DNA of 64,000 nt from Kalymmatonema hyalinum WJT4-NPBG1. GTDB taxonomy: Bacteria > Cyanobacteriota > Cyanobacteriia > Cyanobacteriales > Nostocaceae. Within the stretch, counting starts at the first letter, position 1. Each line of letters begins with the position of its first letter. The translations under genes and the position numbers were made by a program. This document shows, one piece after another, positions 30,798-34,237 of the stretch. The stretch spans positions 1 to 64,000 of the forward strand of contig JAHHIB010000037.1 in the NCBI GenBank assembly GCA_019359075.1, written 5' to 3'. Under the pieces are notes generated by a model. It saw nothing but the letters and a program-made list of their open reading frames with translations. It made no database searches and was not told the DNA's origin.

Positions 30798-31061
30798 CTA
30801 CTTGAGCGTGTGCTTATTACTATTAGTACTGGCTGTGCCTTGCGCGTCATAATAATTGTATGATCAAACAGAGCGCCATTTTGGATGTACCACTACACCT
30901 CAATCTATACAAGCAAAATTCTTGTGTTTTACTTGTTAATATGTGTCAAAATTTGCTTTCTTCTTGCTATATTGTGTGTTAAATATTCTTTTCTACTGAC
31001 GCGGCGTTGCTGGCATTCTCAAGACTTATGAACCCCTGTCACAGGTAAAAATAATTTGTAG

Positions 31062-31309
31062 CTGTAATGAGCGTGAATTGGTAAAACAGGTCAATAACCC
31101 CAAGAAAGCCTAACGGCTGAGGGTGGGGCTTGTAAGAGACAAGTCTTACGTGTTTGACTAGCCCACTGAGCCTAATTCTGGTACAGACTTCCGAATACTT
31201 CCCCAGTTCGGATTATCTCTAAACCGTCTTGTTAACGGTGTTGCGAAAGCCAAGCCATCTTGGATTAGGTGGGCGAGGGGACTTACAACTTTACTCAAGG
31301 ATTATCTCC
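31062..31309 (+). ncRNA. candidate omega RNA (HEARO-type) of the IsrB-like gene
   Basis: Structured leader ending at the IsrB start codon. Helices visible by eye: AGCC/GGCT at 31107-31118; GTGGGGCT (31123-31130) with AGCCCAC (31160-31166) enclosing GTAAGA/TCTTAC (31132-31149); ACCGT/ACGGT at 31223-31239; CCAAG/CTTGG at 31250-31263. IscB/IsrB genes are known to be preceded by such an RNA whose 5' end carries the guide. Both ends here are estimates: the 3' end is set to the start codon, the 5' end to where stable pairing begins. The guide would come from sequence at or just before about 31060. Confidence 0.6.
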
Positions 31310-32422
31310 ATGCGAGTACCAGTTTTATCACCAAGTGGGAAACCACTGATGCCCACAAAGCCCAGCAGGGCGCGTCGTTGGTTAAAACAAGGAAAAGCAC
31401 GGGTTGTACATAACGACCTTGGTATTTTCCAGATTCAGTTAATTAGATGCCCCAGGACTACTAATACGCAACCAATTGCAGTTGGTATTGACCCTGGTAA
31501 GCATTACACGGGTGTTGGCGTACAATCCGCCAAATTCACCCTCTGGTTAGCTCACCTCCAGCTACCATTCAAAACCGTCAAAGACCGCATGGAGCAACGG
31601 CGCATGATGCGGAGAGGGCGCAGAGGCAAAAGGATTAACCGCAAGATTGAATTCAATCAACGCGCTCATCGTCAAAAGCGGTTTGACAATCGTCGCCAAT
31701 GCAAAATACCCCCAAGCGTTCGAGCAAACCGCGAACTAGAGTTACGGGTACTTGACGAACTATCCCTGATCTACCCAATCACGACAGTCGCATACGAAAT
31801 CGTCAAAGCGCGTGGTGATAAAGGATTTAGTCCGGTAATGGTTGGTCAGAAATGGCAACTGAACCGACTGAGTACAGACTGGGACGATGTGCGTGAGGTG
31901 GAAGGCTGGCAGACCGCAAATATCAGACAGCAATTAGGGCTGCACAAGCAAAAACATTCTAAGGGTGACGTAATTCCTGCAACCCACGCAGTAGATGGGG
32001 TTGCACTAGCTTGCAGTACCTTGATCCGCTACGGCATCACTAGCCGCAATTCTCAAGGATGGATTGGTCACGTTGCCATAACACCCGCACCATTCACAGT
32101 GATTCGCCGTCCTCCTGTTAGCCGTCGTCAGTTGCACCTTATGGTTCCTGCCAAGGGCGGAGTGCGCCGCAAGTATGGCGGCGCTGTTACCCGTCATGGA
32201 TTCAGGAAAGGCGACTACGTTGAAGCTAGCCAAGGAAACAAAACCTATCAAGGATGGGTGAGTGGCGACACCGAAAAACAAGTTTCTGTATCCGACCCAA
32301 ACTGGAAACGGTTAGGTCAATTCAGTAAAAACAAAGTCCAATTGGGAAAGCGTTGCACGGGTTTAATCGTGCTGCCAACTCGGAAAATGTCAAACTTAAT
32401 GGCATCGAGCCATCAAGTTTGA
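31310..32422 (+). CDS. isrB: IsrB-like RNA-guided nuclease homologue (IscB without HNH)
   Basis: Protein of 370 aa. N-terminal PLMP domain: VPVLSPSGKPLMPTKPSRAR; RuvC-I AVGIDPGKHYTGVGV (D61); Arg-rich bridge helix RRMMRRGRRGKRINRK; RuvC-II TTVAYEIVKARG (E163); RuvC-III PATHAVDGVALA (H226, D229). Only 66 residues separate E163 and D229, with no HNH or zinc motif, which defines IsrB as opposed to IscB. The C-terminal part has VRRKYGGAVTRHGFRKGDYV, seen in the same family. All catalytic residues are present. Known IsrB acts as an RNA-guided DNA nickase. The ATG at 31310 starts the PLMP domain; the frame is open upstream to 31229 but overlaps the RNA. Confidence 0.88.
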   Translation: MRVPVLSPSGKPLMPTKPSRARRWLKQGKARVVHNDLGIFQIQLIRCPRTTNTQPIAVGIDPGKHYTGVGVQSAKFTLWLAHLQLPFKTVKDRMEQRRMMRRGRRGKRINRKIEFNQRAHRQKRFDNRRQCKIPPSVRANRELELRVLDELSLIYPITTVAYEIVKARGDKGFSPVMVGQKWQLNRLSTDWDDVREVEGWQTANIRQQLGLHKQKHSKGDVIPATHAVDGVALACSTLIRYGITSRNSQGWIGHVAITPAPFTVIRRPPVSRRQLHLMVPAKGGVRRKYGGAVTRHGFRKGDYVEASQGNKTYQGWVSGDTEKQVSVSDPNWKRLGQFSKNKVQLGKRCTGLIVLPTRKMSNLMASSHQV

Positions 32423-32470
32423 CCTGGCAACCTCGCCCGACCTGCAACGCTAGCGGTCGGGGTATCTCGC

Positions 32471-32512
32471 GGAAAAAAGATGAAAAATAAGGATGAGCCG
32501 GACGGCTCATCC
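32471..32512 (-). terminator. Rho-independent terminator of the HtrA gene
   Basis: Perfect 9-bp stem GGATGAGCC/GGCTCATCC (32491-32512) with a 4-base loop. On the minus strand it is followed by TTATTTTTCATCTTTTTT. It lies 31 bp after the protease stop. Confidence 0.85.
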
Positions 32513-32543
32513 CAGAAATCAGGTCTACATTGAGGCAAAAGGC

Positions 32544-33794
32544 TTATTGCAATTGACTTGGTTGAGTTGGAAAAGCACCTGGGCGCACAGCTAAGTTGAG
32601 ATTTTGCCCATTGCGACGCAACTCCATACGTACATCTCCCCCAACTTGGCTATTTTCCACTGCCTTTTGGACAGAAGCAGTGTCTGTCACTGCTTTACCG
32701 TTGAGTTTTTGGATAACATCACCAGCACGTATCCCTGCTTTGGCTGCTGGTGAATTGGGCATAACTTTGACAACCAAGACGCCACGGTCTTCATCAACAC
32801 TCAAACCGCTGTTGGGATCGGAGTTGATGCTTTGTTTCAACTCAGGTGTTAATCCTACCATCTGAATTCCTAAATAAGGATGTTGTACTTTGCCTGTCGC
32901 TATCAGTTGACTGGAAATTCGTTGCGCTGTGTTGATAGGAATGGCAAAGCCCAATCCTTGTGCTCCTTGGATTATAGCTGTATTCATCCCAATAACCTCT
33001 CCTTGGGCATTAAGCAGAGGCCCGCCAGAGTTACCAGGATTGATCGCAGCGTCTGTTTGAAGATACTCCACTCGCTTATCGGCAGCGCCAATCAGATTGC
33101 TGGCGCGTCCGGTAGCACTGATAATGCCAGTAGTGACAGTGTTATCTAAACCCAAGGGGTTGCCGATCGCGATCGCCGACTCTCCAGGTTGTAGCTTCTC
33201 TGAGTTACCCAACTTTACTGTTGGCAACTTATCTGCTTGAATCTTGACAACAGCCACATCTGTCAATTCATCTTTCCCCAGCACTTTACCTTGAAAAGTG
33301 CGCCCATCCTTGAGCGTCACTTTCACCGTATCCGCACCATTAACAACGTGGGCGTTGGTGAGAATGCGACCATCAGCACTCATGATGAAGCCCGAACCAG
33401 TACCGCGTTCCACCCGCTTTTGTGGAATTGGCATTTGAGATCCAAAAAAACGACGGAAAAACGGGTCGTTAAATTCCTCCGGTAACTGAGTTTTGACTGT
33501 TCGGGCAGCATCAATCCGCACTACCGCTGGTCCAACTTGTTGTACAACCCCTATGACAAAGTTAGGATTAGTCCCAGCTGGTATTGGGACAGCATTTACC
33601 GGACTCATTGCGAGATTGGACGCGCTTTTAGACACCTGTTGAGAATGAGAAGCTAGATAGCCGCCTGCGAACGTCATTCCAGATCCTAGCAATACCAGCG
33701 ATAAATGAAATGCTGGTTTTTTCCAAGAAGAACTGTTTAAGATTTTGTTGTATGTTCCTGACTGCTTATCACCATCACGTGGTATTTTATACAT
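32544..33794 (-). CDS. HtrA/Deg-family serine protease with PDZ domain
   Basis: 416 aa. A membrane anchor or uncleaved signal at 28-46 exports the protease to the periplasm or lumen side. The trypsin-like triad is H149 (LTNAHVVNG), D179 (LTDVAVVKI) and S256 ([11 protein letters not shown]). A single PDZ domain covers about 310-400 ([30 protein letters not shown]). One PDZ domain and this size match the cyanobacterial HhoA/HhoB/HtrA group; I cannot decide which. It degrades or refolds damaged exported proteins. It is convergent with the IsrB element and probably monocistronic. Confidence 0.94.
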
Positions 33795-33908
33795 AGTGTT
33801 TCTATAAGTCTCGATACATTTCCAATCTAAAGAGGCTTTGTGTCAATGCTGTGACAGAGATATGACGGACTTGTGAAAACCCTGACTGCGTAAGTCCTAT
33901 ATCTATCT

Positions 33909-34213
33909 ATATCTATAGAAGTTGTGTTTGTGTTGCTCGGCGAGATGCTTTCTAGAAAAACCCTTGAATAAAAAGTAGAAGCAATAGTAAGACATTCAAA
34001 GGAAAAGTCAGCAAACAGGCACAATAGAATTGGTGCCAACAGTTTAGACAACACTGAAATTATATCTATTGAAGTTGTGTTTGTGTTGCTCGGCGATCGC
34101 CTTTCTAGAAAAACCCTTAAATAACAAGTAGAAGCAATACTAAGACACTCAAGGGAAAAGTCAGCAAACAGGCACAATAGAATTGGTGGCAACAGTCGAG
34201 ACAAGACAGAAAT
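33909..34213. repeat. 153-bp tandem duplication
   Basis: Copies start at 33909 and 34062 (both ATATCTAT.GAAGTTGTGTT) and stay alignable to about 34060 and 34213, with roughly 10 percent differences. A HIP1 site (GGCGATCGCC) is present only in the second copy; the first reads GGCGAGATGC there. The block ends 25 bp before the metacaspase fragment. A frame open on the minus strand through both copies follows from the period being a multiple of three. Confidence 0.85.
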
Positions 34214-34237
34214 TTGTAGAGGCGTAGGCAGGCAAAG

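Follow-up and report, generated by a model that had tools for sequence, protein, structure and literature searches.

A 64,000-nt stretch of Kalymmatonema hyalinum WJT4-NPBG1 (hereafter the window; assembly GCA_019359075.1, contig JAHHIB010000037.1, genome label G000) contains a gene that an initial annotation, made from the letters alone, had assigned to an IsrB-type RNA-guided nickase with an omega RNA leader, and the locus raises the question of whether gene and leader form a mobile element, where that element begins and ends, and which DNA its RNA would lead the protein to. We consider it highly probable that the locus is a 1390-bp OMEGA (HEARO/IsrB) insertion element without a transposase of its own, for which we propose RNA-guided homing. 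The element belongs to an already known kind (IsrB/OMEGA), and this copy is new.

We defined the ends of the element by its empty sites in G001 and G002, two genomes of the same genus, where the host flanks are 90-95% identical to those of the window and adjoin one another with the element absent. Host sequence on the left runs to 31089 (AAACAG) and starts again on the right at 32480, as ATGA in G001 or ATAA in G002, so that the element spans 31090-32479 and is inserted, with neither duplication nor loss of target DNA, between the 20-mer AGCGTGAATTGGTAAAACAG and ATGA. A right join at 32473 proposed by BLAST was rejected as a chance overlap of A-rich sequence, the true boundary being 32479/32480. 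Because the empty sites put the left boundary at 31090, the 20 nt of host DNA directly before it are the inferred guide, with the guide length adopted from DtIsrB of Desulfovirgula thermocuniculi (PMC9581776). This 20-mer has one exact copy in each of G000, G001 and G002, all at this site, and copies with 2-3 mismatches are also present. The initial annotation had placed the guide near 31040-31065, some 25-30 nt too far left, and had closed the element at 32461, 18 nt short of the empty-site end. Two subterminal hairpins lie inside the element; both follow the conserved part of isrB (DNA fold z -5.5). A fixed adjoining tetranucleotide, the lack of target duplication and subterminal hairpins are traits of IS200/IS605-type elements moved by a Y1 TnpA, and the window element has all three. 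ATGA lies 3' of the 20-mer in the G001 empty site and 3' of the element in the window, the position of a target-adjacent motif (TAM).

The window protein is an IsrB with an intact RuvC and TAM-reading residues and no HNH, in agreement with the initial annotation on each of these points that it had raised (IsrB identity, catalytic residues, missing HNH). Its open reading frame (ORF) runs from an ATG across 31310-32419 plus the stop codon, in a frame already open from a TTG at 31229. Residues 2-352 are colinear with DtIsrB (PDB 8dmb), the best match among solved structures (E 1.5e-50), and an AlphaFold2 model built with 19 relatives in the alignment (mean predicted local distance difference test score 74.4) again found 8dmb as its best Foldseek match (template modelling scores 0.71/0.79). 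The marks of an IsrB—a PLMP/RRXRR N-terminus, a bridge helix, a split RuvC with its catalytic residues, and a C-terminal TAM-interacting domain with its TAM-reading residues—are all present. D61, E163, H226 and D229 are invariant across a 19-protein alignment, and all four are kept in 119 of 123 aligned sequences (counting the window itself as well as 15 duplicate records). Of the other four, one has D61A, one has H226Q and two are pieces without the D61 region. E163 and H226 are 62 residues apart, a spacing in which no IscB-type HNH insertion, hidden or otherwise, was found, and a Pfam scan of the protein returned RRXRR as the sole match (residues 3-167, 163.2 bits) and no HNH. The protein shares with IscB the RRXRR N-terminal part, the bridge helix and a leader RNA of the HEARO kind, but differs in lacking HNH and in matching the NCBIfam IscB equivalog on residues 5-166 only, with 108.8 bits against an unreached cut-off of 175. 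In the structure-database alignment, R334 and Q337 align with R323 and Q326 of DtIsrB, which read G3 and A4 of the TAM (PMC9581776). By analogy, the protein would be an active nickase that makes RNA-guided nicks in the non-target strand.

Directly 5' of the isrB start lies a leader of 220 nt (the initial annotation had correctly described a structured omega RNA abutting the gene, but had estimated about 250 nt), and judged from related leaders it is a conserved, covarying omega RNA of the HEARO type. The Rfam HEARO model RF02033 aligns end to end (1-211) with 31090-31286, at 41.7 bits (E 9.8e-7 in the short stretch, 1.1e-6 genome-wide), and its first base coincides with the left end of the element. 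From 33 leaders, picked from 43 mutually less than 88% identical, we obtained a consensus of 46 pairs in 9 helices in which 95.6% of cells are paired, compared with 72.9% in shuffle controls and 30-48% in slid versions of the structure. Changes on both sides occur at 39 of the 46 pairs, vs. 27.8 in shuffles and 17-22 in slid versions, and the cells with such changes number 338, vs. 94 and 37-68, respectively. The consensus was derived from the same alignment and is therefore flattered relative to the slid versions, but the both-side changes appear to go well beyond such flattery. A promoter scan returned one site, on the wrong strand, and fewer sites than in shuffles.

Features of the window element and its insertion site (window positions)
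Feature	Coordinates	Strand	Basis or remark
Inferred 20-nt guide, host DNA left of element	31070..31089	+	Left flank of empty sites ends at 31089
Omega RNA (HEARO-type) scaffold, element left end GTCAATAACC	31090..31309	+	Sub-threshold Rfam RF02033; covariation, 33 leaders
isrB gene, 370 aa + stop	31310..32422	+	RuvC D61, E163, H226, D229; TAM-reading R334, Q337
Subterminal hairpin 1, 15-bp stem, overlaps stop codon	32389..32423	+	DNA fold, sequence
Subterminal hairpin 2 (CCCGACC...GGTCGGG)	32436..32461	+	DNA fold, sequence
Right-end tail of element GTATCTCGCGGAAAAAAG	32462..32479	+	Empty-site comparison; inter-copy similarity ends just past NTGA
ATGA insertion motif/TAM, host DNA	32480..32483	+	ATGA in G001 empty site, ATAA in G002

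The initial annotation had named other copies and the empty site as things to look for, and sister copies were found alongside the empty sites. The window IsrB has 14 matches in its own genome, five of which, counting the window, span the full length at 53% identity or more, and the closest copy of the element is 78% identical. HEARO matches in the genome number 26: 21 lie above the gathering cut-off, 15 of them with no IsrB protein match directly behind, and the five below it are the window, three other IsrB leaders and a standalone IsrB-type RNA on contig C15; the leader of the IsrB at C36:25912 is absent among the 26. We joined the flanks of four other IsrB copies (L002, L003, L004 and L005) and of the standalone element, and searched for them in six relatives, which gave a test of the window element and five sisters with the distant IsrB at C36:40320 left out. 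Empty sites were found for all six of the elements tested; for each sister, at least one of G001 and G002 has a site that reads through the joint without a break, and the small gaps in the G002 match of L004 lie elsewhere than at the joint. The motif at the empty site is ATGA for L002, L003, L005 and the standalone element and TTGA for L004, and the five sisters follow the same insertion rule as the window element.

The standalone element, 346 bp without a gene (L111 1501-1846), is shared with G002 at the same site and absent in G001 and G012. It ends exactly where the start codon of a small ORF rich in cysteine begins (MKTTTNSCPCCDSPLL...), and the inferred guide of the element contains the native AAGGAG, which resembles a Shine-Dalgarno (SD) sequence. 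In another cyanobacterium, the ORF start (MSMKANTCPCCGASL...) adjoining the right end of the IsrB element L126 at ~3736 resembles the ORF behind L111, a likeness that reflects either a recurrent target or an old shared site. The distant copy left out above (G000:C36:40320-41282) belongs to a second IsrB subfamily, which is shorter and 39% identical; its right end, set by eye, precedes ATCA and not NTGA.

To ask how general this insertion rule is, we pooled IsrB loci from named loci (the best 80 of 253), 20 regions and 24 further loci, which came to 109 after removal of 15 duplicates and to 107 after removal of one distant and one orthologous copy. Right ends were assigned at first for 101 of the 107 (86 via homology, 15 from the motif only); fourteen were then set by eye, two of them for loci previously without an end, and removal of two motif-only ends kept the number of elements with a right end at 101, of which 97 have both ends. 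Similarity between independent copies ends just past ATGA: the tetranucleotide occurs in the 16 nt at that point in 59 of 90 elements, compared with 6 of 90 when a background stretch 100 nt beyond is taken, and with the fourth base left free, NTGA is found at 84 of the 87 best-supported NTG sites. On this comparison, the insertion motif of cyanobacterial IsrB elements is NTGA, the TAM of DtIsrB.

Residue 337 bears on the same motif. Glutamine accompanies NTGA in 98 of the 101 elements and arginine accompanies ATGG in two, with no aligned residue in one, counts that lean toward NTGA since right ends other than the two with ATGG were sought as NTGA. The ATGG ends of the two arginine elements (L078 and L120, both at apparent gene starts) were set by eye before residue 337 was inspected; a third arginine protein (L079) and a tyrosine protein from a held-out set (L263) have no usable right end. 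The corresponding DtIsrB substitution, Q326R, gains use of NTGG TAMs (PMC9581776), and the two natural elements hint that TAM reading and insertion-site choice change together in nature.

Since NTGA contains a start codon (ATG, GTG or TTG, followed by A), elements of this family often sit exactly before an apparent host start. This was the case for 44 of the 97 elements for which both ends were assigned (33 of 79 when only ends defined by homology are used), where a gene start was called if the NTG opens an ORF of at least 60 codons and its frame, followed upstream in the rejoined site, closes within 30 codons. For ATGA elements the count was 42 of 83, and the baseline in the same flanks, built from ORF rules rather than annotation, was 213 of 2874 ATGA sites (7.4%). 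We tentatively read cyanobacterial IsrB elements as start-codon insertion elements, in which insertion motif and TAM alike are the start codon plus one base (NTGA, or ATGG where arginine replaces the TAM-reading glutamine), the native ribosome-binding region becomes the guide and the right end serves as a portable translation leader, a reading to which we give slightly less than an even chance. With a nearly even prospect of being correct, the elements may instead insert at any NTGA, with copies inside genes purged by selection, starts being rich in ATGA and the right end having no translation function. Survival of this kind would fit the rise of the baseline to 213 of 825 sites (25.8%) once predicted coding interiors are left out, yet the observed fractions exceed even that figure, at 42 of 83 (p 1.2e-6), at 33 of 68 when only homology-defined ends are used (p 4.8e-5), and at 9 of 13 in the held-out set (p 0.0013; 20 regions, 19 of them new, with both ends in 13, one of these mis-set, and the end call missing in six). 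Around the 42 gene-start insertions there are 32 other same-strand ATGA sites within 100 nt, and of the remaining 41 ATGA insertions, 14 are followed within 200 nt by a start-like codon.

Also against an account by survival alone, genes cut from their native leader, such as those for ATP-sulfurylase and galactokinase, remain open. A Pfam scan of 20 of the 44 start ORFs (mostly long ones chosen) gave a match in 18, and in 13 of the 20 the best domain match starts within the first 25 residues, for instance a galactokinase signature at residue 2, an OppC N-terminal domain at 4 and an ATP-sulfurylase PUA domain at 8. The right ends themselves speak on both sides. An SD-like 4-mer is found in 44% of 41 unique gene-start right ends, vs. 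24% of 49 elsewhere, 12% of shuffles and 21% of 43 native leaders, an excess that is suggestive only because right ends are related by descent. The anti-SD hybridisation energies show no separation (mean -3.79 at gene starts, -3.92 elsewhere), and the idea of an SD in every right end was rejected because several subfamilies have no SD-like stretch; both observations fit a right end without translation function. Native leaders at gene starts did not surpass the remaining left flanks as SDs (p 0.82). Among the literature listed, no title or abstract ties IsrB, IscB or HEARO to start codons, with the first HEARO, OMEGA and ISC reports outside reach and an earlier description possible; the start-codon pattern is the part that a specialist may not expect.

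In the homing cycle that we propose for the window element, a transcript from the left flank would carry the 20-mer as guide, as in DtIsrB, and the IsrB-RNA complex would nick the non-target strand of empty alleles in which the 20-mer lies beside NTGA, after which repair from a filled chromosome would restore the element in the nicked allele. The filled site would be immune to nicking because the 20-mer there precedes GTCA, and the ATAA allele of G002 should escape targeting. At gene-start insertions, the right end would replace the native leader of the host gene, which would then be translated from it. Movement to new sites would require an IS200/IS605-type Y1 TnpA acting in trans: of 17 Y1 transposase matches in the genome, not one lies on the window contig, and as initially annotated there is no tnpA inside the element. 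Among the 12 of these 17 whose surroundings were read, a degenerate tnpA on contig C18 has behind it a hairpin and tail built like the right ends of some IsrB relatives. Intact relatives of this tnpA from other genomes have ends that, judged by eye, precede ATAA or GTCA. These findings favour mobilisation in trans by such a transposase but are no proof of it.

Further observations concern movement in the wider family. L004 and L076, from two genomes, share 98% identity as far as the right end and differ beyond it, a pattern that points to recent movement, and an IsrB copy (L122) on a record titled plasmid1 from Calothrix sp. NIES-4105 indicates that plasmids can carry IsrB elements. The 21 loci L088-L108 in G000 are IscB-type HEARO elements, many without a gene, and on brief inspection several end at ATGA and two at GTGA. 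HEARO elements reportedly adjoin ATGA or GTGA, according to the paper that discovered them. Since some of these loci have tails that resemble those of certain IsrB elements, the two kinds may share a transposase.

Several results weigh against our reading of the window locus and its family. At the gathering threshold of 83 bits, the Rfam scan of the window leader gave no match, so that the HEARO search named in the initial annotation produced a match, but one below cut-off. Folding of the single leader is no better than that of shuffles (z -0.20), and fold energy was therefore rejected as proof of structure; energy does not show the structure, covariation does. The window element itself is not at a gene start, its ATGA opening only 17 codons, and no intact transposase was found with the same right end and an ATGA preference. 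Finally, four IsrBs of cyanobacterial and other origin (CwIsrB, K2IsrB, CsIsrB and DsIsrB) recognise NTG, not NTGA, in vitro (PMC9581776), so the fourth motif base may be set by the transposase rather than by IsrB; ATAA should escape either way.

Two other accounts of the locus have to be weighed with these results. It is unlikely, though conceivable, that the element is a decayed remnant that looks intact but is not expressed and does not move: it has no transposase, and the 78% identity of the closest copy in the genome means no recent burst of the window subfamily. The gene is nevertheless open, the catalytic and TAM-reading residues and most of the covarying RNA pairs are kept, and the element is absent at the same site in G001 and G002, from which it follows that it inserted recently on the scale of the genus. 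Very improbable in our view is a domesticated RNA-guided regulator of host genes in place of a homing or maintenance system. The standalone RNA at a gene start, with its SD-like AAGGAG in the inferred guide and its occurrence in both G000 and G002, is what such a regulator might look like, but RuvC residues intact in 119 of 123 sequences are at odds with it, as are the six tested elements, which are scattered and each lacking from the corresponding site in one relative or more. Our preferred reading remains an OMEGA insertion element with RNA-guided homing. The analysis shows its identity, RNA structure, ends and motif and the rule common to its sisters, and from these we infer guide use, nicking, homing to empty alleles, filled-site immunity, movement in trans and host-gene translation from the right end.

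The closest known system is DtIsrB, with which the window element shares a colinear protein, the fold, the RuvC and TAM-reading residues, a leader RNA directly upstream and an NTGA motif 3' of the guide match (PMC9581776). The two differ in sequence (~35% identity over the structural alignment), in scaffold length (262 nt in the same source vs. 220 nt in the window) and in host, which here is a mesophilic cyanobacterium, and the activity of the window protein is predicted from sequence. CwIsrB (Crocosphaera watsonii) and DsIsrB (Dolichospermum sp.) are likewise cyanobacterial and nick in vitro, but with a reported TAM of NTG (PMC9581776). IsrB loci from Crocosphaera and Dolichospermum records are among the relatives analysed here and may or may not include the tested proteins.

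Beyond the right end, a hairpin at 32490-32513 is present in the empty sites and hence is host DNA; it looks like the terminator of a minus-strand gene (32544-33794) that by eye encodes an HtrA/HhoA-type protease. Upstream of this gene, 33908-34214 holds two tandem 153-bp units, 90% matching, and the unit is also partly repeated in G001 and G002.

For the window element we know, to the base, the inferred guide as well as an intact target allele in G001 and a natural escape allele in G002, which makes the proposed IsrB homing cycle testable with native sequences. For the family, the start-codon pattern offers a reason for the NTGA motif, namely a start codon plus A, and gives a concrete prediction on how such elements persist in genomes: if the reading is true, an element could sit in front of useful genes and leave them active, and might tune their expression.
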